From assembly GCF_000186265.1 (NCBI RefSeq), contig NC_014934.1, positions 4,030,001-4,094,000 of the forward strand: a stretch of DNA of 64,000 nucleotides, in the 5' to 3' direction. A program made the translations under genes and the position numbers. Shown one piece after another: positions 4,082 through 31,581 of this stretch. The stretch comes from Cellulophaga algicola DSM 14237. Lineage in GTDB: Bacteria; Bacteroidota; Bacteroidia; Flavobacteriales; Flavobacteriaceae. The notes beneath the pieces are model-generated. The model ran no database searches. It had not been told where the DNA came from and saw nothing but the letters and a program-made list of their open reading frames with translations. The first letter of the stretch is position 1. Each line of letters begins with the position of its first letter.

Positions 4082-6946
4082 TTACTTCTTAAATTCAATT
4101 GTTCCTATATTAAAATCACCACTCTTAGCAGGTTCTAGTTGAAGGGTCAAGACTTCTTTTTGCTCATCTTTTGTTCCGAAGTTAGTATATACTAAGGCTC
4201 TTACGGTGACATTGCCCAATGCAGTTTGTTTTCTTGTACCATAAAAATTAACATCTATACCATATGCACCATCTATAGCATCCTTAAGTCTAAACTCTTC
4301 AGGGCCATATCCTTGAGTAATATCATAAGATATTCTCCCGCCTAAGCGCGTATTCTTGTTGCTATAACTACACTTTTCTTTATTAGGATCTGTAATCCAT
4401 AAATCAATATCTGTTTCATTAGCATCCCAGTCAATAACAATTCTAACATCTACAGGCATATGTTTTAGAAAACATGGGTTTATAAAAGAGACGTCTAATT
4501 TTTCCTTATGTTTGAAAATAATATTGTTGATATCATGAAGGGTGATTAATTCTATACCATTAAATCGAGACATAATATCTGCATCCCATTCTTTATCTAT
4601 GACACGGTATAAGTTATTAATCGCTTCCTGATTTTCTCCTAATTCGGCATAAGTAAGTCCTAAATCTATATAAGAATGTGGTTCAAAGGATCTTGTGTCT
4701 AGAACTTCTTTAAATACAGCTAATGCTTCGGTAAAGAACTTAAATTCAAAAAGTTTTCTACCTAAGGTGCGCAGTAATTCTGTATTTTCTAATTCTAATT
4801 CTGCAAGATTAGAAATTACACGTAAGCCTTCTTTCCTTTGGTTGTTTTGAAACATATAGGTAGCTACATCAAAGTAGAAAGATGGGTTTGTACCATTTTC
4901 GTCCTTTAGCTCTAAATATGTAGTATAGACATTTTCTTTTGCAACAGATTTCAAAGTATTGATATAAGGAGCTTTACTGTCCCATGTTGCAATTGTTATT
5001 TTAGGCTTGTTTTCCTTCTTTTTAGATCTTTTCTCACTAGACTTACTTTCAGAAGCAACTTCATCCATCGCCATTTCCATTTCCATATTAGCTTGTGGAG
5101 CGTCTGAAATTTCATCTCTTGAAACCATTTCTACTGGTTCAATATTTACATCATTTACGTTTGGTCTCTTAGGTACCGATTTTTGAATTGGTGGATTCTT
5201 CCACCAATTGTAATCTTCACTAAAGGTGCTACATAAACTTAAAATTCTATGCTTTTTGATATCTTTTTTTTGCTCATTTTTCATAGCAATGCGCTTAAAA
5301 TATTCCTCTTGTAATGAAGCAGGGGGAACAATTTCATAGCGTACATAATCTGCTACATCGTCTAAAACAATTAAAGACGTATTTGGAGTAACTAGGTTGA
5401 ATTTTTTTCCGTGTGACTTTATAGCAGCCACATTTTGATCTACGAGTAATGTTTTTAACTTTTTCTGCGCCCAAATACGTTCTCCTAAATTATGATCTAA
5501 TGCTTCGGCATTATCAATAAGTATACGCTTTGTTTCCGTAATTTCACCTCCAAAACCAAAATGCAAAGTTAATTCTGCTTTATCACCTTCAATTTTGCCA
5601 GACATACTGAAATTGTCGGTTATTTTTTCTCTATTATTCGGGAATATTTCTTTTATCTTGTTGGTGTCAAATTCGGCTCTAATAAACTGCTTTTGTTCGT
5701 GGGTAGCCTTATCAATGGCTTGATCTGTAGCGGATTCGAAAGCATTAATGTAGGTACCATTTGAACAAACAGCCATATATGCTAATAAACTGTGGTTTGC
5801 TATATTAGAAGTGTTAACGGCAATAATAGGCGATTCAAAATTGTTTTTATTTTTTTCACCGAAATTAGAAACTCCATCTGAAAATAATAGAATTTCTTCG
5901 GTTTTAAATGTTGAAAAATCTATTGCATTTATAGCAGTGCCACCATCATAATGTTCTGCTTTTAAATCGCTAATAAGCTTTTCATTTTTTCCATTTGTTA
6001 GATCATATGTTTTAGAGGAATGTATGGTATTGGAAAAAGTAACTAGCGTTACCTTGCCTTGTTTCATCCAATCAAAATATCCTTGAAGAATGGCAACTTC
6101 TTTCTCTAAATCTCTATTTTGTACTGAAGAAGAAACATCCCAAACCACAGTTGTTTTTTTTGGAGTTTTCTTTTTGCGTTGTTCAGGTGTTATATCAAGA
6201 TGGGTATAAAAATAATTATCTGAAGTAACAGACCCCTTATAGGTAATTACTTTAGACACCTTTTTAGGTTTTGGAATAGCAAAGCTTAGATTACTTTCCA
6301 ATGTTTTATTTTCTTCTTTATAGGTACTAATATAGGAGTTACGAGCTTCTGTAAATTTTAAATTAATTTGTGGGTCGTTGCTCTTTAGAATCTTTGGTTT
6401 GTTTAAAACGACTTCAACCTTCACAGAAAAGGTTTCTAATGCGTTTTTTATATGTAAAGGCAGTTGGTAAATATAATTAGCAGCATCTCCTTTAATTTCA
6501 TGTTCAAAGGCTATGATCGCTTTTTTATACCCTTTTGCAGGTATTGGGTAAACTCTAGCTTTAAAATTATTACCAGTAGTAACTTCTGCAAGTCCTGGGT
6601 CAACGTTTCTACGTGTTACCGCTTCAAAGGCTTGGGTGGCAGTCTCTTTATCAACAACAACACCTTCTCTCATTTCTCCATTTACATCTAATGCAAAACG
6701 AGAAATTGTTATTCCGTTACCTAATGGAAAATTTAATTCACCCTCCATTACGCGGTTATTAGCATTGTAAAATCGCATCTCTAATGTGGTGGTAGCAATA
6801 TTATCGATGACAAAAACATTAATATGGAGATCGCTTAATTGAATAGGTTTACTGGTGTCATCGGTGGTCTTAAGTATTGGAATCCCTTGTGCAAGGGCAA
6901 TTCTAGAGAAGATTAAGAACAAAATAAGAATAGAATGTTTTTTCAT
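4082..6946 (-). CDS. Secreted VIT / von Willebrand A / TPR / DUF2135 protein
   Basis: The 954-residue exported protein begins with a hydrophobic signal peptide ending near IALAQG (about residue 20). In order it has a VIT (vault/inter-alpha-trypsin) domain at about 25-160 and a von Willebrand A domain at about 265-430 with a MIDAS DxSxS (TTVVWDVSSS). A low-complexity Glu/Met-rich linker follows at about 600-650, then TPR-like helices at about 690-800. The C-terminal DUF2135/YfaP-like domain starts at about 825 (DIDLWITDPN, LGGRISYDITQGYGPEEF). VWA MIDAS sites bind proteins through a divalent metal. DUF2135 domains are known from secreted or surface proteins, but their ligand is unknown. It is likely periplasmic or surface exposed, since no transmembrane anchor is visible apart from the signal. 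It has its own long upstream region. Confidence 0.82.
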   Translation of the reverse strand: MKKHSILILFLIFSRIALAQGIPILKTTDDTSKPIQLSDLHINVFVIDNIATTTLEMRFYNANNRVMEGELNFPLGNGITISRFALDVNGEMREGVVVDKETATQAFEAVTRRNVDPGLAEVTTGNNFKARVYPIPAKGYKKAIIAFEHEIKGDAANYIYQLPLHIKNALETFSVKVEVVLNKPKILKSNDPQINLKFTEARNSYISTYKEENKTLESNLSFAIPKPKKVSKVITYKGSVTSDNYFYTHLDITPEQRKKKTPKKTTVVWDVSSSVQNRDLEKEVAILQGYFDWMKQGKVTLVTFSNTIHSSKTYDLTNGKNEKLISDLKAEHYDGGTAINAIDFSTFKTEEILLFSDGVSNFGEKNKNNFESPIIAVNTSNIANHSLLAYMAVCSNGTYINAFESATDQAIDKATHEQKQFIRAEFDTNKIKEIFPNNREKITDNFSMSGKIEGDKAELTLHFGFGGEITETKRILIDNAEALDHNLGERIWAQKKLKTLLVDQNVAAIKSHGKKFNLVTPNTSLIVLDDVADYVRYEIVPPASLQEEYFKRIAMKNEQKKDIKKHRILSLCSTFSEDYNWWKNPPIQKSVPKRPNVNDVNIEPVEMVSRDEISDAPQANMEMEMAMDEVASESKSSEKRSKKKENKPKITIATWDSKAPYINTLKSVAKENVYTTYLELKDENGTNPSFYFDVATYMFQNNQRKEGLRVISNLAELELENTELLRTLGRKLFEFKFFTEALAVFKEVLDTRSFEPHSYIDLGLTYAELGENQEAINNLYRVIDKEWDADIMSRFNGIELITLHDINNIIFKHKEKLDVSFINPCFLKHMPVDVRIVIDWDANETDIDLWITDPNKEKCSYSNKNTRLGGRISYDITQGYGPEEFRLKDAIDGAYGIDVNFYGTRKQTALGNVTVRALVYTNFGTKDEQKEVLTLQLEPAKSGDFNIGTIEFKK

Positions 6947-20432: not shown

Positions 20433-21668
20433 TTAGGAGGTTGTGGAGTTTTTGTCCTTAAACCTTAACTCTCCCAATTCAATCCCAATCGCCGTTTTAG
20501 CAAGGATAGTAAATACAAAGGCTCCCATTGCCCAGATACCAATAGTTACGCCTATTTCTATTCCAGAAGGCAGGTATTCTACTATTTTACCGTAGGGTCC
20601 AGGAATAAAGCCAGGAACAATTAACCCAAAACCTTTTTCGATCCATATGGCGACAAATAGCATTCCACAACAGAGGTATAATATTTTAAGATTGTTTCTA
20701 AGTTTATTGAACGTAAGCATTATGGTGGCAAGTACATTTATAGGAATAGCCGTCCATATCCAAGGCAATAATGCCGTTTTACCGTGTAAACCAAAGAATA
20801 GGTAATAGGCACTTTCGCTATGATGTGTGGGTGCATAAAACTCTTTAAATAACTCAGAAACAAGCATAATCAAATTTATTTGAGCAGCCACGGTTACAAT
20901 CATCGCAATTTTTTTGATTGTTTTATCTTCTATTTTGAATGCTGTAAAGGAACGAATGATGGCTAAAACTAAAATGATAAGTGCAGGTCCTGCTGCAAAA
21001 GCAGATGCCAGGAAGCGAGGACCTAAGAGTGCATTATTCCAAAAAGGGCGTGCTTGTAATCCTTGATATAAAAAAGCAGTCACTAAGTGTATACCTACAG
21101 CCCAAAATACGGATAGAACAGCGCCTGGTACATATACACTTTTCTTAGCTTCCTTGTTTTGATAATGTTTAAAAAGGATATAAAATGGAATGCTGATATT
21201 TATAAAAAGATAACCATTTAAAACAATAACATCCCAAGTTAGCATGGAGTTGGGAAAGTTAAAAACACCTATTCCGGGAATCATATGCCATAAAACAGAA
21301 GGTCCACCCATATCTGCAACAACAAAGGCTAAACACATGATTAAAGCGGCCACGGCAAGTCCTTCTCCAATTAATACCGCTTGTTTAAAATCGATATCTT
21401 TTAAGACATAGGTTGGCATCACTAACATGACGGCAGCTGCGGCAACCCCCACCAAAAAAGTAAAGTTAGAGATATAGAGCCCCCAACTAACCCGGTCAGA
21501 CATACCTGTAGCACTAAGTCCCTCCTCTAATTGAATGGAATAGCAATACATACCTATGAGCATCACGAGTGTTAAGAATCCCATCCAAAGATGATACTTT
21601 TTAGATCCTTTGGTAATCGTATCTAAACTATCGATTACTAAGCTTTTAAATACTTTAAATGTTCCCAT
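20433..21668 (-). CDS. NrfD/PsrC-type membrane quinol-oxidising subunit
   Basis: The 411-residue polytopic protein has about ten membrane segments and belongs to the NrfD/PsrC/DmsC group. These proteins take electrons from membrane quinol and pass them to a partner Fe-S protein. Recognisable stretches are WGLYISNFTFLVGVAAAA (about 43-60), a strongly conserved strand for this family, and WHMIPGIGVFNFPNSMLTWDV. It is the last gene of the operon, directly after the NrfC-like Fe-S protein, so the two would form the quinol dehydrogenase for NapA in place of NapC or NapH. The gap of 92 bp to the Fe-S gene is somewhat longer than elsewhere in the operon, but no promoter is evident there. Confidence 0.88.
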   Translation of the reverse strand: MGTFKVFKSLVIDSLDTITKGSKKYHLWMGFLTLVMLIGMYCYSIQLEEGLSATGMSDRVSWGLYISNFTFLVGVAAAAVMLVMPTYVLKDIDFKQAVLIGEGLAVAALIMCLAFVVADMGGPSVLWHMIPGIGVFNFPNSMLTWDVIVLNGYLFINISIPFYILFKHYQNKEAKKSVYVPGAVLSVFWAVGIHLVTAFLYQGLQARPFWNNALLGPRFLASAFAAGPALIILVLAIIRSFTAFKIEDKTIKKIAMIVTVAAQINLIMLVSELFKEFYAPTHHSESAYYLFFGLHGKTALLPWIWTAIPINVLATIMLTFNKLRNNLKILYLCCGMLFVAIWIEKGFGLIVPGFIPGPYGKIVEYLPSGIEIGVTIGIWAMGAFVFTILAKTAIGIELGELRFKDKNSTTS

Positions 21669-21760
21669 TGTATATTGTTTTAAATCAATTAGCCAAGAAT
21701 TAACTACGATTCTAAGCGTTGCGATTTATAGGTCTTTTTTTATTAAAACAGTGTTTTTAG

Positions 21761-22897
21761 TTAGTCCATAAAGTACCAGAACTTAGGTTCTGTACCTAAA
21801 TCTTCTTTTAGTCTAAACACTTTTTTATTTTCTAGTACCCATCGTATGGTGCTGTTTGGGTCTAATAGGTTTCCAAAAATTCTAGCTCCAGTTGGACAAG
21901 CTTCTACACAGGCTGGGTTTTTTCCTTTCCGGGTACGTTGCACACAGAAAGTACATTTTTCCATGACCCCTTTTTTACGCATTCTGTTTCCTAAGTAATG
22001 TTGGTTTTTGTTTACTTCTTTTTCGGGTACTTCAGGTTTACTCCAATTAAATCTTCTACCATCATATGGGCAAGCGGCCATACAATAGCGACAACCAACA
22101 CACCAGTCATAATCAATAACGACAAGACCATCTTCTTCTTTCCAAGTGGCTTGTACTGGGCACACCTCTACACAAGGTGGGTTATCACAATGAAAACATT
22201 GTGTACCCATATAAAAGTGACCTTCTGCAGGCACTTCATGGTAATAATTGTCATCTGCTTTGTCAAACTTAAAGCCTTCTCCGTCTTTCATTTCGTGAAT
22301 TCGGATGTATTGCATTTCGGAGTTTCTATCTTGGTTATTCTCTTCTACACAGGCACTTACGCAATTCATATACCCTTGGCATTTTGAGATGTTGAATGCA
22401 TACCCAAAGAGCACATCTTCTGCCGCATTTTCTGCGGTCATATTTATACGTTTATCGGTTCTTAATTCATAAGAACGCATAAGTCTGTCTATAGTCCCTT
22501 TTTTCTCATCATCGGTCATTAGTTTATAGTTTCCTTTAAACTGTTCTTCCCAATCAATTTGAGCTTTTTCTTTACTATCATCTCCTGTAGTTACACTGCA
22601 CGAAGTACTTACGGCTCCTGCACCAATAAGAAGACTAGCTGTTAATTTTCTAAAAGCGCTTCTTCTATCCATTTTTACATCAAAGACCTGGTCAAAGCCA
22701 TCTTTGTGTCTTTCTTCGCCTATAGATGCATTGATTGCTGCTTCGTAAAATTCATCAGCACTTAATTCTTCTTCTACTTGTTCCTTAGGAGTGCTACTAC
22801 AGCTTCCTTCAGATTTACCGCAACCACAAGAACCCGAAGCTTCTTTTTTATTGTTTAGACCTAGGTCTAGAGAGTACCATTTTTTATTATCGCTCAT
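21761..22897 (-). CDS. NrfC/NapG-type 4x[4Fe-4S] ferredoxin subunit with Tat-like signal
   Basis: The 378-residue electron-transfer subunit has four cysteine groups that would bind four [4Fe-4S] clusters: CQGYMNCVSAC (173-183), CFHCDNPPCVEVC (234-246), CVGCRYCMAAC (266-276) and CTFCVQRTRKGKNPACVEAC (315-334). A twin-arginine-like motif DRRSAFRKL (77-85), a hydrophobic stretch and VSTSC (96-100) suggest Tat export with lipidation. They come after an unusually long n-region that contains its own Cys-rich patch CGCGKSEGSC (24-33). It sits between the tetraheme lipoprotein and the NrfD-like gene, so it probably relays electrons from quinol via NrfD to the cytochromes and NapA. The N-terminal patch has no obvious equivalent in classical NrfC. 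Confidence 0.85.
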   Translation of the reverse strand: MSDNKKWYSLDLGLNNKKEASGSCGCGKSEGSCSSTPKEQVEEELSADEFYEAAINASIGEERHKDGFDQVFDVKMDRRSAFRKLTASLLIGAGAVSTSCSVTTGDDSKEKAQIDWEEQFKGNYKLMTDDEKKGTIDRLMRSYELRTDKRINMTAENAAEDVLFGYAFNISKCQGYMNCVSACVEENNQDRNSEMQYIRIHEMKDGEGFKFDKADDNYYHEVPAEGHFYMGTQCFHCDNPPCVEVCPVQATWKEEDGLVVIDYDWCVGCRYCMAACPYDGRRFNWSKPEVPEKEVNKNQHYLGNRMRKKGVMEKCTFCVQRTRKGKNPACVEACPTGARIFGNLLDPNSTIRWVLENKKVFRLKEDLGTEPKFWYFMD

Positions 22898-22907
22898 ACC
22901 TTTATTT

Positions 22908-23537
22908 TTAGTGATCTAAACCTTCTTTGCGTTCTATAGCCGTTTGTGTATTAAATTGTACAGGCCATCTTTTTTCAAAACTAGGACGGTGTGGATTGTG
23001 ACAATTAACACACGTATTTGATGCTCTTGGAGGAGCCCAGCCGGCTACTTTTTTACCATGTGCACCACCTTTCCAGTCCTCAAATTGGCTTGAGTGACAT
23101 TGTGCACAGAGTTTGTAGCTTAGATTGAAATCTATATTTTTACCTGTAAGGGTATTTAAGTTATTCATATCGGCTCCATTATGGCAGGTTGCACAGTTCA
23201 TAGCATCACTATTCGCATGGTTTAACTTAATATCCCAGTGCGCTTTTTTTGCATCTGCGCCCATCATTTGTGAAACAGGTTTGCTGTGACATTCTATGCA
23301 GGCAAAAGATTTTATCTGTCCTTTTCGTTCCGGAATTAGGAAGGTAAACTCTCCTTCAGTAATTTTAATTAACGCTGTACCTGCTAATAGTTCTTCAGAA
23401 GAAAGGGGACCGTGATACGGTTTACTTTCTCCTTCTATTTTGTCAGATATAGAATGATATTCTCCTTCTTCTTTACAAGAGAATAAGGATACTCCTAGAA
23501 GTACTACTACGTAATATATGAGCGTTCTATTTTTCAT
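22908..23537 (-). CDS. Tetraheme cytochrome c lipoprotein of the nap operon
   Basis: The 209-residue protein has a lipobox near residue 21 (VSLFSCKEE), so it is a membrane-anchored lipoprotein facing the periplasm. Four c-type heme motifs follow: CIECH (80-84), CATCH (115-119), CAQCH (144-148) and CVNCH (176-180). Extra histidines (AHW, LNH, GAHGKK) are possible axial ligands, and the layout is like cytochrome c3/NrfB-type tetrahemes. It overlaps the next upstream gene by 11 bp. In the operon it would pass electrons from the Fe-S/NrfD module to the NapB-like cytochrome. The C-terminus ends soon after the last heme and no catalytic pocket is apparent. The precise partner order is inferred. Confidence 0.8.
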   Translation of the reverse strand: MKNRTLIYYVVVLLGVSLFSCKEEGEYHSISDKIEGESKPYHGPLSSEELLAGTALIKITEGEFTFLIPERKGQIKSFACIECHSKPVSQMMGADAKKAHWDIKLNHANSDAMNCATCHNGADMNNLNTLTGKNIDFNLSYKLCAQCHSSQFEDWKGGAHGKKVAGWAPPRASNTCVNCHNPHRPSFEKRWPVQFNTQTAIERKEGLDH

Positions 23538-24243
23538 TTAGTTGATCGAATTGTCTCAGAAATGTACTGGTATCAACATTTGGCTGAATATTATTTTTTG
23601 GTAAATGGCATTGTCTGCAGTTTATCCGTTCTGGATGAGACACCCTTATTTCTTTAGGAGCACTTGGTCCTCCATGACAAGAAATACAATTTTCTCGCAT
23701 TTGAAGTTGGTGTGGTATCATTGGCGGACTCCCTAATAAAGCATTGTTTGCACCTACGCCCACTTTTGGTGGTTCTGGTTTTGAAAAGGAAAACCCTTTA
23801 AACGTAGTAGCTGTATTTTTAGTAACATGGCATTGACGACAGTTTACCATTTCTGGATGTGGAGTAATAGGCGCATAGGCATCAAATTTTTCTACAAAGC
23901 CACCATTCTTATGACATTGGATACACGTATTACCTCCAAAACTACGTTCTTTTGCTACGGGGTGTGGAATACTCGGTGGTGCTCCCGGATAGGCTCTATT
24001 ATCATAATAAGTATCCAGAGACCGTTGGTGATTTTCATCAACAGGCATATTTAAATAGTCTAAACCTGCATCATCAAATCGTCTGAAAGCGCCACTTTCT
24101 GAAGGGATAAAGTTTCCTGTAGGCGTTTCAATAACCGGCATATAGGCTTCTTCCAGCCCCTGTTGGTAGCTGTAGTTCCAAATAACAATGAATGCTATGA
24201 AAATTACTACAAAAAATGATATGATCCCGAGTCTCTTTTTCAT
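23527..24243 (-). CDS. NapB-like cytochrome with four heme motifs (duplicated diheme unit)
   Basis: The 238-residue protein has an N-terminal membrane anchor (about 5-22). It carries CxxCH motifs at 107-111 (CIQCH), 135-139 (CRQCH), 186-190 (CISCH) and 209-213 (CRQCH). Each half repeats a NapB-type unit: a PPxIPH stretch (89-94 and 173-178) is followed by a heme, then PHP or SHPE, then CRQCH. NapB usually has only two hemes and passes electrons to NapA. This looks like a tandem NapB duplication giving a tetraheme. It follows napA by 3 bp and overlaps the lipoprotein gene by 11 bp, which fits tight coupling with the catalytic subunit. Confidence 0.85.
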   Translation of the reverse strand: MKKRLGIISFFVVIFIAFIVIWNYSYQQGLEEAYMPVIETPTGNFIPSESGAFRRFDDAGLDYLNMPVDENHQRSLDTYYDNRAYPGAPPSIPHPVAKERSFGGNTCIQCHKNGGFVEKFDAYAPITPHPEMVNCRQCHVTKNTATTFKGFSFSKPEPPKVGVGANNALLGSPPMIPHQLQMRENCISCHGGPSAPKEIRVSHPERINCRQCHLPKNNIQPNVDTSTFLRQFDQLNEK

Positions 24244-24246
24244 AGT

Positions 24247-26574
24247 CTATACTCTTTCAACTTTAACTGCACATTTTTTATAATCAGGTTCTTTAGAGAT
24301 AGGGCAGAAGGCATCCAAGGTTACATCGTTAATAAGCATATTTTCATCAAAGAAAGGAACAAATACTTGCCCTTTTGTGGGGAGACCTCTTTCGTTAATA
24401 GAGGCTGGTAGTACACAAGAACCTCGACGAGAAGTAACTTTAATATTTTCTCCATTTCGTACGCCAAGAGATTTTGCATCGTCTGGATGGAACTCTACAT
24501 ACGCATTTGGCATAGCTTGATGTAATACAGGAATTCGTCTAGTCATAGATCCTGTGTGCCAATGCTCTACAACACGGCCAGTGTTTAACCAGAATGGGTA
24601 TTCTTGATCTGGTTTTTCCGGAGCTTCTTCAAAAGGACGTTGCCATATTACTGCTTTACCATCTGGTTTGCCATAAAAATGAAAGTCTTCACCATTAGAA
24701 CATGCAGGATCATATTTAGCATTGTAACGCCATTGAGTAGACTTACCATCTACATATGGCCAAATAGCACCAGACTCTTTCTTTAAGACTTCAAGTGGTG
24801 CCATTCCGTGTTTTGCACCCTCGTGGAATTGTCTGTATTCATTATATATTTCTTCTACGTGATTTTCTTTGCTATATGGGAATAGGTCTGCAAACCCCAT
24901 TCGTTTCGCTACTTCAATAAACATCCAAGTATCTGGTGTTGTATCTCCAGGCCCTTCTATCATTTTCTGCCAATACTGTGTTCTACGCTCAGAGTTACCA
25001 TAGAGTCCGCCTTTTTCAATATGCCATGAAGCAGGAAGAATAACATCTGCTACGTCTGAAGTAGGGGTAGGAAAAACGTCTGAAACAACCACGAAGCATG
25101 ATTTTTTTTCCATTGCAGGACGGTACCGGCCGGTTTTAGGTAGCGAGACTAATGGATTTGTAGCCTGTATCCATATAAAATTTATATCGCCACGATCTAC
25201 TGCTCTAAACATTTCGGTAGCATGATAGGTGGGTTTCGATGGAATACGTTCCACAGGAACTTTCCATATTTTAGCTGCCATTTCTCTATCCTTCTTATTG
25301 GTCACTACACCATGTGGTAATTTATGAGTAAAAGTTCCTACTTCACGAGCAGTGCCACAAGCAGATGGCTGCCCTGTTAATGAAAAAGGTCCGTTTCCTG
25401 GTTGTGAAATTTTACCGGTGAGTAAATGAATATTGTAAACGAGGTTGTTAATCCATGTTCCTCGAGTATGTTGGTTCATTCCCATGCACCAGTAAGACAC
25501 TACTTTTTTATTTGGATCTCCATAAATAGAAGCCAAGTACTTAATATCTTTTACAGATACTTTAGAATATTTAGAAACCTTCTCTGGACTATAATCTTTT
25601 AGAAATTCTTTATACGCTTCAAAGTCTATTTTTTCAGGTTTATCGGTAAATGTAAAATTGTCTTCTAAACCGTATCCAATGTTTGTAAGCCCTTTACTAA
25701 AGCTACAGTGTTTCTCTACAAAAGATTTGTTTACCCATCCGTTTTTTATAATTTCATAACAAATGGCATTTGCAACAGCTAGATCTGTTTGAGGTTCAAA
25801 TAAAATAGACCTGTCCGAAGCGGTACTTGATCGTGTTGTTCGTGTTGCAAAATCAATAATTTTAGCACCACGTCTTGATTTTTGTTCTAACATTCTGGAG
25901 AATAATACAGGATGCATTTCTGCCATATTATTTCCCCAAGTGATAAAATAATCTGCGTGATCTATATCTTCATAACAACCCATAGGTTCATCTGCTCCGA
26001 AAGAAGTTAAGAACCCAGTAACCGCGCTTGCCATGCATAATCTTGCATTACAATCTAGGTTATTAGTACCAATAGCTCCTTTCATGAATTTAGAAGCAAT
26101 ATACCCTTCTGGAATGGTAGACTGGCCTGATGTATACATGGCAACAGCATCTTTACCGTGCTGGGCAATAGTTTCTTTCATTTTAGAAGCAACAAGGTCT
26201 AAAGCTTCACTTATTGGTGTTTGAACATATTTTCCATTTTTCTTTACTAACGCGTGTGTGAGTCTATCCTTAGATTGAATACACATAATTTGATGGTATC
26301 CCTTAACACATAATAAGCCTTTATTTACAGAAGAATTTGGATCCCCTTTAACGGCTATAGCTTTTCCGTTTTCAGTACCTACAAGAATACCGCAACCTAC
26401 ACCGCAGAATCTACAAGGTCCTTTTTTCCAATCTAAATTGGCATTTTCAGGAATTCCTTTTTCTTGTTCACTGGCGAATATAATACCAGGAAACATGGAT
26501 GCAGCAGCTGTAATAGCAGACAACATTGCCATTTTTTTTATAAAACTCCTTCTATTTGTTACAGAATCGTACAT
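24247..26574 (-). CDS. napA: NapA, periplasmic nitrate reductase catalytic subunit
   Basis: The 775-residue molybdopterin enzyme reduces nitrate to nitrite in the periplasm. It begins with a Tat signal (NRRSFIKK, 7-14). The [4Fe-4S] ligands are CRFCGVGC (54, 57, 61) and Cys89 in KGLLCVKG. The Mo-ligand region is NNLDCNARLCMASAV, with Cys180 as the expected metal ligand. Bis-MGD contact stretches such as GMNQHTRGTW and VVSDVFPTPTSDVADVILP are present. Length and motifs fit NapA rather than membrane NarG. It lies between the napD-like chaperone gene (8 bp upstream) and the tetraheme NapB-like gene (3 bp downstream). Its transcript starts at the divergent promoter shared with moeA, which makes its cofactor. 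Confidence 0.93.
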   Translation of the reverse strand: MYDSVTNRRSFIKKMAMLSAITAAASMFPGIIFASEQEKGIPENANLDWKKGPCRFCGVGCGILVGTENGKAIAVKGDPNSSVNKGLLCVKGYHQIMCIQSKDRLTHALVKKNGKYVQTPISEALDLVASKMKETIAQHGKDAVAMYTSGQSTIPEGYIASKFMKGAIGTNNLDCNARLCMASAVTGFLTSFGADEPMGCYEDIDHADYFITWGNNMAEMHPVLFSRMLEQKSRRGAKIIDFATRTTRSSTASDRSILFEPQTDLAVANAICYEIIKNGWVNKSFVEKHCSFSKGLTNIGYGLEDNFTFTDKPEKIDFEAYKEFLKDYSPEKVSKYSKVSVKDIKYLASIYGDPNKKVVSYWCMGMNQHTRGTWINNLVYNIHLLTGKISQPGNGPFSLTGQPSACGTAREVGTFTHKLPHGVVTNKKDREMAAKIWKVPVERIPSKPTYHATEMFRAVDRGDINFIWIQATNPLVSLPKTGRYRPAMEKKSCFVVVSDVFPTPTSDVADVILPASWHIEKGGLYGNSERRTQYWQKMIEGPGDTTPDTWMFIEVAKRMGFADLFPYSKENHVEEIYNEYRQFHEGAKHGMAPLEVLKKESGAIWPYVDGKSTQWRYNAKYDPACSNGEDFHFYGKPDGKAVIWQRPFEEAPEKPDQEYPFWLNTGRVVEHWHTGSMTRRIPVLHQAMPNAYVEFHPDDAKSLGVRNGENIKVTSRRGSCVLPASINERGLPTKGQVFVPFFDENMLINDVTLDAFCPISKEPDYKKCAVKVERV

Positions 26575-26582
26575 AGCTATAT

Positions 26583-26816
26583 TTATTGTGGGGTGTTAAA
26601 ACCTGAAACTAAAGCCAATAATTTAAGGCTACTTAGAGCTTCAATTTTTTCCTTTAAAATTTCGTCTTCCTTTTCGTTTTCCGTATCGGTGACCAAGGCT
26701 AGAATATCTTGATTCTCAGCAGGGATTACTTCACACTGATCAAAACTTTTTAAAGTAATCAGTAATTCTTCTTTCTTTCCCTTCATCGGATGAGCTAGAT
26801 AACTTTTAATAGGCAT
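26583..26816 (-). CDS. NapD-like chaperone for the Tat signal of NapA
   Basis: The 77-residue protein (MPIKSYLAHPMKGKKEELLI...) has the size and alternating strand-helix pattern of NapD, a ferredoxin-like cytoplasmic chaperone that binds the twin-arginine signal of NapA and proofreads its export. Features are the N-terminal strand followed by a helix (KKEELLITLKSF), a central strand (ENQDILALVTD) and a C-terminal helix, strand and tail (LKLLALVSGFN). NapD sequences are poorly conserved, so the call rests on size, fold pattern and the position directly before napA at 8 bp. It is the first gene of the operon, downstream of the predicted shared promoter. Confidence 0.7.
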   Translation of the reverse strand: MPIKSYLAHPMKGKKEELLITLKSFDQCEVIPAENQDILALVTDTENEKEDEILKEKIEALSSLKLLALVSGFNTPQ

Positions 26817-26876
26817 ACAAAATCATTTATGTTGTGTGTGAGACTCATTTTTTTTAACAAATCCCTAACATTTTAG

Positions 26877-26951
26877 CAAAAATCCGTAAACAATCGTAAT
26901 AAAAAGATGATAATTATCATAGGTAGTATTAAAATATGAGCGCTATATTTG
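26877..26951. promoter_or_regulatory. Divergent nap/moeA promoter pair with one CRP/FNR-type operator
   Basis: The perfect palindrome ATGATAATTATCAT (26907-26920, centre 26913.5) lies between two outward -7 boxes. TATATTTG on the plus strand (26944-26951) exactly matches TAnnTTTG. GATTTTTG on the minus strand (26877-26884) matches 7 of 8. The centre is 37.5 and 36.5 bp from the last base of the respective boxes, so one bound activator would sit near -41.5 for both transcripts. No -33 TTG is apparent on the plus side. The same layout occurs at 7295-7338 and 30400-30443. A FNR/CRP-family regulator is inferred. Confidence 0.6.
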
Positions 26952-26991
26952 AGCGGAAATAACGGTTATATAGGTTCTTAAAATTAGTTAA

Positions 26992-28191
26992 ATGGAGAAG
27001 AATTCGACTTTGATAAGCATACAAGCAGCGCAAGCATTAGTTTTAAAATATAGCTCAGTGACTTCGGTGATAGTAGAAATGGATCTTTGTAATGCTTTAG
27101 ATTATGTTCTTGCCATAAATGTTATTTCAGAAATTGATATGCCTCCTTTTAGACAGGCAGCAATGGATGGCTATGCTTTTAGCATTAGTAGCGCTATAAC
27201 ATATACTGTTGTTGCGGAAATAAAGGCGGGAGATAATGCTAATCCAATATTAAAAGAAGGAGAAGCCGTTAGAATATTTACGGGAGCTCCAGTACCTACC
27301 ACTGCAAATGCAGTAATAATGCAAGAGAAAGTAGCCATTCAAGGACACAAAATGACGGTGCAAATGCCTTTAGTTGTAGAGATGAATATAAGACCAAAAG
27401 GCTCCCAAATTAAAAGAGGAGCAATGGCCTTAGCGAAAGGCACTAAGATAAAAGGCGCGCATATTGGTTTTTTGGCTAGTATAGGCATTACAAAGGTTAG
27501 CGTTTATGCTAAACCATCTATTGCTATTGTCGTTACCGGAAATGAACTGAAAGCGGCAGGTACCCCTTTGGAGTATGGAGAAATTTATGAATCAAATGGT
27601 ACAATGCTTTCTGCTGTATTGCAGGAATTGGGGTATTTAAAAACTTCAATCATTACGGTTGCAGATGATTATGACCAAACAAAAACTACTTTAAAAGAGG
27701 CTATTCAAGTACATGATATCGTGTTGGTTACCGGTGGAGTATCTGTAGGAGATTATGATTTTGTTGGAAAAGCATTGAAAGCTATTGGGGTAAAAGAAAT
27801 TTTTTATAAAGTAAAGCAAAAACCAGGAAAACCTTTATTCTTTGGAAAAATGGGTTCGGTATCCATATTCGGACTCCCTGGGAATCCAGCAGCGGCATTA
27901 AGTTGTTTTTATATTTATGTGTATCCACTTTTAAAAAAGGGAGAAGGTGCTACCAACACCCAATTACTAAGTATCTTTATGCCTATAACCTCAGATTATG
28001 ATGTTAAAGGAGATCGGGCTCAATTTTTAAAGGCACAAATAGAAGAAGATGGTGTACAAATTTTAGAAGGACAAAGTTCTGCATTCGCAGGTAGTTTTGG
28101 TGCCGCTAATGCATTGGTGTTTATCCCTGAACATACTCCTAAAATAAAAAAAGGAGAACGGGTTAAAACAATTCTCTTACCCATAAAATAA
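26992..28191 (+). CDS. moeA: MoeA, molybdopterin molybdenumtransferase
   Basis: The 399-residue protein inserts molybdate into adenylated molybdopterin in the final step of molybdenum cofactor assembly in the cytoplasm. It shows the MoeA/gephyrin E-domain features: MPPFRQAAMDGYAF (about 51-64), IFTGAPVPTTANAVIMQE (about 95-112), a central IVVTGNEL strand with the GGVSVGDYDF loop (about 250-259), and SIFGLPGNPAAALSCF (about 298-313). Full length for the family. It starts 40 bp after its predicted -7 box at the promoter shared with napD/napA, so cofactor supply and nitrate reductase would be induced together. It is followed after 10 bp by the modE-like gene. Confidence 0.92.
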   Translation: MEKNSTLISIQAAQALVLKYSSVTSVIVEMDLCNALDYVLAINVISEIDMPPFRQAAMDGYAFSISSAITYTVVAEIKAGDNANPILKEGEAVRIFTGAPVPTTANAVIMQEKVAIQGHKMTVQMPLVVEMNIRPKGSQIKRGAMALAKGTKIKGAHIGFLASIGITKVSVYAKPSIAIVVTGNELKAAGTPLEYGEIYESNGTMLSAVLQELGYLKTSIITVADDYDQTKTTLKEAIQVHDIVLVTGGVSVGDYDFVGKALKAIGVKEIFYKVKQKPGKPLFFGKMGSVSIFGLPGNPAAALSCFYIYVYPLLKKGEGATNTQLLSIFMPITSDYDVKGDRAQFLKAQIEEDGVQILEGQSSAFAGSFGAANALVFIPEHTPKIKKGERVKTILLPIK

Positions 28192-28201
28192 AGCCATACA
28201 A

Positions 28202-28543
28202 ATGAGTAATTTTAAAATTAAAAGTAGGGTTTGGATTGAAGTAGGAGATAATGTTCTTGTTGGGGAAGGAAGAATAAAGCTTCTTAAAGCAATTGAAGTA
28301 GAGGGTTCCTTAGCGAAAGCAGCAAAATCTATTGGAATGTCTTATAAGAAAGCATGGACCCTTGTAGATGCCGTAAACAAATCTGCCAATGAAGCTGTAG
28401 TTACCAAAACTGTAGGAGGTACAAAAGGCGGCGGTACCGTTATTACTCCGTATGGGAATAAACTTATAGCAGCTTTTGAAACTATTAATAAAAACTGTTG
28501 GGAATTTTTAGACCAACAAATGAAAGAATTAAATCAATTATAA
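28202..28543 (+). CDS. ModE N-terminal-domain-like winged-helix regulator
   Basis: The 113-residue protein is the DNA-binding half only of ModE: a winged helix with GRIKLLKAIEVEGSLAKAAKSIGMSYKKAWTLVDAVN (residues 22-58) and the Gly-rich wing GGTKGGGTVITPYG (78-91). Full-length ModE has C-terminal molybdate-binding TOBE domains, and these are absent here. In single-domain members molybdate sensing is doubtful, and the role may be repression or activation of molybdenum genes. It lies between moeA (10 bp) and moaE (3 bp) on one transcript, which supports a link to cofactor supply. No molybdate-transport genes are in the window. Confidence 0.85.
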   Translation: MSNFKIKSRVWIEVGDNVLVGEGRIKLLKAIEVEGSLAKAAKSIGMSYKKAWTLVDAVNKSANEAVVTKTVGGTKGGGTVITPYGNKLIAAFETINKNCWEFLDQQMKELNQL

Positions 28544-28546
28544 TAT

Positions 28547-28987
28547 ATGTCATCACCCTATAAAAACGTTTTTAGTCAAGGTCCTATATCTTCAGAATTT
28601 ATAGCGCAGTCCATTACCAAACATCAATCTAAAACAGGAATAGGAGCTCATAACATATTCCTAGGACAGGTGAGGGCAGATACCATAGACGGAAAAATAG
28701 TTGCAGCCATAGATTATTCTGCTTATGAAGATATGGCAAATAAGAAATTCCATGAAGTCCGGGAAGCTACTTTTGAAAAATTTGAATTAAGCTGTATGCA
28801 TATTTATCATAGTCTTGGTGCTGTAAAAACGGGGGAAATATGCCTATTTGTATTTGTTTCTTCGCCAAGGCGAAAAGTGGTCTTTGAAGCCTTGGAGTAT
28901 GTTGTGGAAAAAATTAAAGCCGAGGTGCCTGTTTTTGGTAAGGAAATTTTTGAAGATGATTCCTACCAATGGAAAGTAAATAGTTAG
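28547..28987 (+). CDS. moaE: MoaE, molybdopterin synthase large (catalytic) subunit
   Basis: The 146-residue protein transfers sulfur from thiocarboxylated MoaD to cyclic pyranopterin monophosphate, making molybdopterin. Family features are HNIFLGQVRADTIDGK (about 36-51), the DYSAYEDMA segment (about 57-65), the IYHSLGAVKTGEICLFVFVSSPRR strand-loop (about 85-108) and the C-terminal VPVFGKEIFEDDSYQWK (about 127-143). In E. coli the active lysine lies in PxWKxE. Here the matching segment reads PVFGKE, with the lysine one position later, a form I associate with Bacteroidota. Its partner MoaD is not in the window. It is the last gene of the moeA transcript, converging on the porin gene. Confidence 0.88.
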   Translation: MSSPYKNVFSQGPISSEFIAQSITKHQSKTGIGAHNIFLGQVRADTIDGKIVAAIDYSAYEDMANKKFHEVREATFEKFELSCMHIYHSLGAVKTGEICLFVFVSSPRRKVVFEALEYVVEKIKAEVPVFGKEIFEDDSYQWKVNS

Positions 28988-31206: not shown

Positions 31207-31581
31207 ATGAAGACCAATTATGAAGTGCGCTATGCAGCATCTCCTGAAGATGTAAAAAGCTATGATACGAACAAACTAAGAGATAATTTTTTGATTAAAG
31301 ATTTGATGACACCAGATGTTATCAATTTTGTGTATAGCCATTATGATAGATATATAGTGGGTAGTGCAGTACCTGTAACTACACCCTTAAAGTTAGAAAG
31401 TATAGATGTATTAAAAGCTAGCTATTTTTTAGAAAGAAGAGAGTTAGGAATTATAAATATTGGTAACAAGGGTATTGTTACTGTTGATGGAGTAGAATAT
31501 GTATTAGCGCATAAAGAAGCGCTGTATGTAGGTAAAGGGTCTAAAGTAGTGGTTTTTTCTAGTAGTTATACTTTTATTTAG
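31207..31581 (+). pseudogene. kduI: Truncated 5' part of kduI (5-keto-4-deoxyuronate isomerase)
   Basis: The frame begins [20 protein letters not shown], then [19 protein letters not shown], then [16 protein letters not shown], the N-terminal beta-rich part of KduI. KduI is the isomerase for 5-keto-4-deoxyuronate from pectin or alginate-type uronates. The family is about 280 residues. Here it stops after 124, with similarity ending near residue 119 (about nt 31563). The sequence then runs in another frame into the C-terminus of an MFS sugar transporter. A deletion joined the two genes, removing more than half of kduI. The metal-binding His region, which lies in the lost C-terminal half, is absent, so no activity is expected. 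Confidence 0.8.

Follow-up and report, generated by a model that had tools for sequence, protein, structure and literature searches.

Class II FNR promoters, divergent promoters that share an operator and ModE operators are all known kinds of regulatory arrangement, and the half-site of E. coli FNR is TTGAT. In E. coli K-12 (NC_000913), an exact CGTTAT-N12-ATAACG repeat, CGTTATATTGTCGCCTACATAACG, stands just before modA, and we take this repeat to be a ModE site; a paper by Studholme and Pau from 2003 reportedly deals with sites of this kind. Single-domain ModE proteins have been described in Desulfovibrio and D. psychrophila, with a sensing mechanism that is called not clear (excerpt of PMC545781). 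For Bacteroidota promoters, an excerpt of PMC9723704 places the TAnnTTTG box at -12 to -5 in Flavobacterium psychrophilum, and neither Fnr nor Crp occurs in its text. CRP/FNR homologues of a Flavobacteriales bin have been located near MalR, with a role in carbon sensing predicted (excerpt of PMC8510549).

The locus analysed here, in which the nap operon and the moeA operon run in opposite directions, resembles FNR/CRP class II promoters in having a palindromic TGAyNNNNrTCA whose distance to the -7 box is constant, and in the presence of such sites before hemN, the cbb3 oxidase, nap and an Fnr-like gene. Unlike that of E. coli FNR, the half-site is [A/C]TGA, and unlike known class II FNR/CRP promoters, those found here are of the Bacteroidota TAnnTTTG type, with one operator placed for two divergent promoters at offsets that differ by one base. 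A second element, on the moeA promoter, is comparable to the E. coli modA operator, since both are 24-bp inverted repeats with near-identical half-sites and regulators with homologous DNA-binding domains; 17 of the 24 letters are shared with the modA repeat, and 19/24 in the corresponding element of locus L010. The target differs, being moeA-modE-moaE here and modABC in E. coli, and in contrast to the E. coli system the -7 box lies within the left half of the repeat and the regulator has no molybdate-binding domain. A DNA-binding domain alone is also what the ModE of Desulfovibrio and D. psychrophila consists of, whereas the site predicted for Desulfovibrio, CGGTCACG-N14-CGTGACCG, is unlike the E. 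coli-type site found here (excerpt of PMC545781). The combination of a shared FNR-type site, a sensor-less ModE and a -7 box inside a ModE-type operator is new; no title or abstract opening among those retrieved deals, for Flavobacteriaceae, with either a ModE operator or a regulon of class II FNR sites, an earlier mention for the phylum being possible.

Gene map and promoter elements

The window, by which we mean the whole 64,000-nucleotide stretch analysed (C1:4030001-4094000), belongs to a single-contig genome of 4,888,353 bases, and the features of the locus are collected in Table 1. The genes napD and moeA are divergent, with the operator ATGATAATTATCAT between both. Relatives of MoeA are found in Aquimarina (51 and 54%) and in other Flavobacteriales, the napD-like frame gave no Pfam or NCBIfam match, and comparison of 26500-27200 with Rfam revealed no known RNA, even when matches as weak as E 1 were admitted. 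Elsewhere in the window, a 124-aa frame at 31207-31581 covers just positions 2-117 of the 277-position KduI model (5-dehydro-4-deoxy-D-glucuronate isomerase), so that the gene looks truncated or broken.

Table 1. Regulatory elements and genes of the nap-moeA locus (positions in the window).
Feature	Position	Strand	Remarks
FNR-type operator ATGATAATTATCAT, predicted for both promoters	26907..26920	.	centre 26913.5
nap -7 box GATTTTTG	26877..26884	-	5/6 letters of TAnnTTTG, one mismatch
moeA -7 box TATATTTG	26944..26951	+	exact TAnnTTTG
Putative ModE-type operator CGCTATATTTGAGCGGAAATAACG	26941..26964	.	covers -15 to +9, with the moeA -7 box and the predicted start
napD-like, leading gene of nap operon	26592..26816	-	from position and conservation beside napA
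napA, catalytic subunit of periplasmic nitrate reductase	24247..26574	-	
Remaining nap operon	20433..24243	-	
NapB-like cytochrome, nap operon	23527-24243	-	
Multihaem cytochrome, nap operon	22908-23537	-	
4Fe-4S protein, nap operon	21761-22897	-	
NrfD-like protein, nap operon	20433-21668	-	
moeA	26992..28191	+	
modE-like gene	28202..28543	+	ModE DNA-binding domain only, 113 aa
moaE	28547..28987	+	

The operator core TGATAATTATCA (26908-26919) carries the TGA and TCA half-sites, and the full 14-mer has a single copy in the 4.89 Mb genome. The letters and coordinates that the initial annotation assigned to the operator and the boxes are correct, and so are its distances of 37.5 and 36.5 bp, which separate the operator centre and the final G of the respective boxes. 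As Bacteroidota sigma-A promoters, the two differ in their match to TAnnTTTG, exact at moeA and with one mismatch at nap. When the last G of each box is set at -5, after the placement given in the excerpt of PMC9723704, the nap start is predicted near 26872, with the operator centre at about -41.5, and the moeA start near 26956, with the operator centre at -42.5. The exactness of the moeA box had been combined with the apparent lack of a -33 element into an argument for dependence on an activator; the exact match stands, but the second part does not discriminate, given that no placed -33 TTG element was found at moeA promoters either with or without an operator, and that any TTG 16-28 upstream is seen at 2/23 moeA promoters with the operator versus 10/45 without. 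A sigma-70 scan was also tried and set aside (6 found versus 3.1 +/- 1.8 expected), as it is not informative for this phylum.

Operator-to-box spacing across the genome

The pattern TGAYNNNNRTCAN{9,39}TANNTTTG, searched over the whole genome with its reversed form as control, gave 41 matches, compared with 15 for the control. Among these 41 sites, in which TGAYNNNNRTCA is followed by TAnnTTTG, 23 have a gap of 23, while the other 30 gaps average 0.60. A gap of 23 is the nap-side spacing and likewise corresponds to an operator centre at -41.5 under the same box placement; the nap box itself, owing to its mismatch, is absent from the 41 strict matches. Two matches in the genome have gap 24, namely moeA and C1:2146584. 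The same peak was found in the relative genomes G018 (19/29 sites at gap 23) and G036 (11/19) when gaps 15-33 were searched, and across the three genera represented by these and our own genome the other gaps average 0.4-0.6. In both relatives a gap of 24 is found at a single site, which precedes moeA. G018 has strict matches in both directions from a common operator, with gap 23 towards nap (G018:C13:24017-24059, minus strand) and gap 24 towards moeA (24048-24091, plus strand), and has an exact TATTTTTG at the position of the nap -7 box. The initial annotation had named spacing as its main evidence and proposed a genome-wide search; the peak at one spacing, judged against the other gaps, did not refute its reading. 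Its description of a symmetric class II layout is supported by the nap spacing and has to be amended on the moeA side, which lies one base beyond the regulon norm.

The genes behind the gap-23 sites, for which we took the longest of the frames that begin no more than 450 nt away, could be assigned for 22/23 sites of our own genome (one had no frame), and at 16/23 the frame starts at most 51 nt from the box. A Pfam scan covered 20 of the 22 frames, the other two being the CRP/FNR-type gene L038 and a frame that starts 443 nt away. Among them are hemN (TIGR00538, 6.1e-127), ccoN (TIGR00780, 8.5e-184), L032 (the gene of the Fnr-like protein), three Usp genes and genes for a ferritin-like protein, for a cytochrome c and for a PAS/GAF histidine kinase. 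Others, for DHBP synthase, glycerol-3-phosphate dehydrogenase, asparaginase, MlaE and a chloride channel, are not obviously tied to low oxygen and count against the reading that we prefer. Outside the window, 13/23 gap-23 sites of the genome fall within about 105 kb (G000:C1 3387727-3492769, partly L130-L133 and L154-L165), a region that also holds five CRP/FNR-type genes, at least one of them a receiver-CRP fusion, and two Usp genes, and that we read as a low-oxygen or stress island.

Operator placement across the family

A napD gene was detected in 69/397 genomes, and with 6 further loci a total of 75 napD loci could be compared. In 36 of them moeA is divergent and adjacent, in the other 39 it is not (it lies 0.8 kb off in L069 and 1.1 kb off in L047, and none was seen in the examined stretch of the remaining non-adjacent loci). 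A full operator precedes napD in 53/75 loci; the 22/75 without it weigh against the reading that we prefer. Over the 53 loci the nap-side box score peaks at a start-to-start offset of 35 (mean 4.30 of 6, against 1.3-2.9 elsewhere at offsets 12-59), with TTT at offset 35 in 45/53. Since TTT is also found at this offset in 16/20 of the loci with an operator and without an adjacent moeA, the nap-side spacing is independent of moeA.

On the moeA side, 33 operators could be evaluated, and an exact box was found at offset 36 in 24 of them, at 35 in 2, at 37 in 1 and at no other offset from 12 to 59. The one-base difference thus described for the window (gap 24 at 26908-26951, against the main regulon peak of 23) is also seen at G018:C13:24048-24091 and G036:C6:184586-184629, and persists across genera (24/33 operators).

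The 36 napD-moeA regions were classified by script as one operator for both sides (18), two operators (6), a single nap-side operator (6), a single moeA-side operator (2), other (1) and none, under the strict rule (3). Because the two regions classed as single moeA-side, L096 and L113, have a nap box at offset 34, the count of shared operators becomes 20/36 (18 by script, 2 read by hand). The nap-side rule is a loose one, as 5 or more of the 6 box letters are present in 11 of these 20 regions and 4 in the other 9; it is satisfied at offset 35 in 18/20 rows, compared with 0-12 at the other offsets from 20 to 59, of which offset 25 gives the highest count. The shared operator is the commonest layout among the 36 regions, but it is not obligatory. 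One operator that would act on both nap and moeA, as originally proposed, is the arrangement predicted for these 20 regions.

An alternative that has to be considered is that the operator serves nap alone, moeA being driven by a ModE-controlled promoter without an activator. This would suit the 6/36 regions with the operator on the nap side only and the moeA spacing one base off the regulon norm. On the other hand, it leaves the constancy of the moeA distance at 36 hard to understand, and it fails to explain the 6 two-operator regions, in which one operator, distinct from that on the nap side, retains an offset of 36 or 37 to the moeA box. Together with the few moeA promoters away from nap that carry an operator (see below), these observations make a nap-only operator unlikely.

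A ModE-type inverted repeat on the moeA promoter

The moeA box TATATTTG is also part of an inverted repeat, CGCTATATTTGAGCGGAAATAACG, an element missed by the initial annotation, and for that reason conservation of the box cannot be credited solely to a promoter. Allowing up to 2 mismatches, CGTTAT-N12-ATAACG is found in 34/36 moeA-adjacent napD loci (the exceptions are L016 and L017) and, under the same scoring, in 2/38 other napD loci (L047 excluded). Its usual form on the moeA side is nearly always CGyTATATTTGnnnnnnnATAACG. Across the family, CGYTATNTTTGN7ATAACG gave 69 sites in 68/299 genomes versus 2 for the reversed pattern, and when all 69 sites were examined, moeA was the first query gene downstream at 68. 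The repeat, again with at most 2 mismatches, also tracks modE: among 37 moeA-type loci in which modE was sought in the examined stretch, it is present in 19/22 with a modE match and in 0/15 without, 9 of these 15 being distant MoeA paralogues (32-35% identity). What is found at this promoter is a CGTTAT...ATAACG-type repeat linked to a modE gene, as expected of a ModE operator.

Could the stretch 26941-26964 be merely a strong promoter with a conserved flank? The left half of the repeat does contain the -7 consensus, and the column counts of the alignment used rows chosen by a relaxed form of the repeat, so that they cannot prove it. Moreover, the bare pattern CGNTAT-N12-ATANCG with one mismatch is common by chance: it was found at 84 places per strand in our own genome against 172 for the reversed pattern, is not enriched and proves nothing by itself, so that the evidence has to come from conservation and from the longer pattern. 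Conservation of the whole repeat beside moeA and its near absence from other napD loci scored alike, together with its association with modE, argue against such a reading. In addition, L021, L041 and L043 retain the repeat intact while the -7 box becomes TATATTCG, meaning that the conserved unit there is the repeat and not the promoter box. We regard a promoter-only explanation as very improbable and continue with the repeat as a putative ModE operator.

How the two elements combine could be assessed at 68 moeA promoters with the ModE-type element (L218 was excluded, having no moeA). An FNR-type operator lies 34-37 before the moeA box in 18/24 promoters beside nap versus 5/44 elsewhere (Fisher 1.9e-7, a value that is indicative only, as the genomes are related). 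This distribution suggests that the core control of moeA is the ModE-type element, the FNR-type operator being present mostly where nap adjoins. The 39/44 moeA promoters away from nap and without the operator are compatible with an operator that serves nap alone, whereas the 5/44 that have it at 34-36 with no adjacent nap rather speak against this.

Candidate regulators

A search for genes of the CRP/FNR family, suggested by the initial annotation, was productive, as 8 proteins of the genome score above the HTH_Crp_2 cut-off. An E-xxx-R motif is present in 6/8 of them, in the stretch that we take to be the recognition helix, as would be needed to read TGA. The best candidate for the activator is the Fnr-like L032 protein (about C1:2228817-2229512), the sole one of the 8 with an N-terminal CxxC, encoded about 2.8 kb from ccoN and matching NCBIfam Fnr at 2.7e-30 (105.5 bits, below the cut-off of 228). 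Oxygen-sensing FNR binds a [4Fe-4S] cluster through cysteines, and the cysteine motif observed in L032 is this CxxC. A strict class II site is found at the Fnr-like gene in our own genome and in 4/4 near homologues (L254-L257, two genera); five more distant homologues are without the strict site, with an operator near the gene in 4/5. Some genomes speak against this assignment: G228 has an exact nap-side site and yet neither a PF13545 (HTH_Crp_2) match nor an Fnr-like homologue was found in it, and in G130 and G332 a close L032 homologue is lacking despite the nap operators. Co-occurrence across genomes singled out no one regulator.

It is conceivable, if somewhat doubtful, that the activator is instead a receiver-CRP fusion (L037 or L034 type) or some other paralogue of the CRP/FNR family, with a phosphorelay or a nitrogen oxide in place of oxygen as signal. 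Such an alternative bears on which protein activates and leaves the shared layout intact. The presence of the E-xxx-R motif in 6/8 of the genome's own CRP/FNR proteins would allow it; G130 and G332 keep the receiver-CRP type (about 68% identity), and Usp genes with class II sites adjoin the L037 gene. Against it stand the strict class II site of the Fnr-like gene itself, conserved in L254-L257, the proximity of that gene to ccoN with its own site, and genome G349, in which the Fnr-like protein is the sole bearer of E-xxx-R among 4 PF13545 matches. Several genomes have, some 7-10 kb away from napD, a second gene for an Fnr-like protein with a CxxC, whose helix reads GTTEEQVIR at G195:C4:123643, G185:C6:366636 and G203:C9:253141 and GTTDEQVIR at G421:C1:337479; matches of about 35% in G005, G010 and G016 may be of this second type.

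The ModE-like protein of 113 aa matches TIGR00637 at 3.7e-25 (87.9 bits, under the cut-off of 98.5) and the E. coli ModE structures (1b9m) at 4.8e-14 over residues 18-95, the DNA-binding domain; no Pfam match was found at 0.001. It has the winged-helix DNA-binding domain of ModE and ends before the C-terminal TOBE/MOP molybdate domains. At E 0.001 the genome yielded neither a TOBE domain (PF03459) nor modA, and as the protein has no molybdate domain either, these results give no support to a molybdate signal. Several relatives have a TauE/SafE-family permease after modE in their moeA operon (L041:6566-7309, L043:6525-7289, with matches also in L011, L012 and L013) and, as our own genome has no detectable modA, such a permease is a candidate molybdate transporter. 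In L043 modE is apparently in two pieces (6189-6525), and the moeA of L007 (G014:C1:2778282-2779478) has one internal stop.

A possible scheme of control and its meaning

On balance, we consider it likely that nap and moeA share a class II FNR-type site, with ModE-type repression acting on moeA only. Sequence comparison shows the two elements, how they are spaced and conserved, and how they are linked to nap and modE; from this we infer that activation takes place, with the Fnr-like protein as the activator, as well as repression by ModE and oxygen as the signal. In this scheme, one CRP/FNR-family dimer would bind the central operator and contact RNA polymerase in class II fashion at both promoters, at -41.5 for nap and -42.5 for moeA, so that nitrate reductase and its cofactor genes would be switched on jointly, most likely at low oxygen. 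The ModE-like protein, encoded by the second gene of the moeA operon, would probably bind the repeat over the moeA -7 box and predicted start and block polymerase, which could create negative feedback on moeA-modE-moaE and not on nap.

We further hypothesise, more tentatively and as a possibility slightly less likely than not, that the moeA promoter is a two-input gate, where polymerase competes with the single-domain ModE for a common set of base pairs and the shared FNR-type site provides activation of both operons. If so, ModE would either read cofactor status by another route or act as plain negative feedback, and nap would be free of the ModE brake, its cofactor supply not. Across related genera, the operator between neighbouring promoters is variously common to both, doubled, or confined to one side. 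The regulon follows a precise spacing rule in Bacteroidota-type promoters. The ModE-type operator is close to the E. coli form although its regulator is without a molybdate sensor, and the old question of what a single-domain ModE senses becomes testable at one short promoter. Taken as a whole, the locus lays out in testable form a way in which nitrate-respiring flavobacteria may couple the enzyme to the supply of its cofactor.
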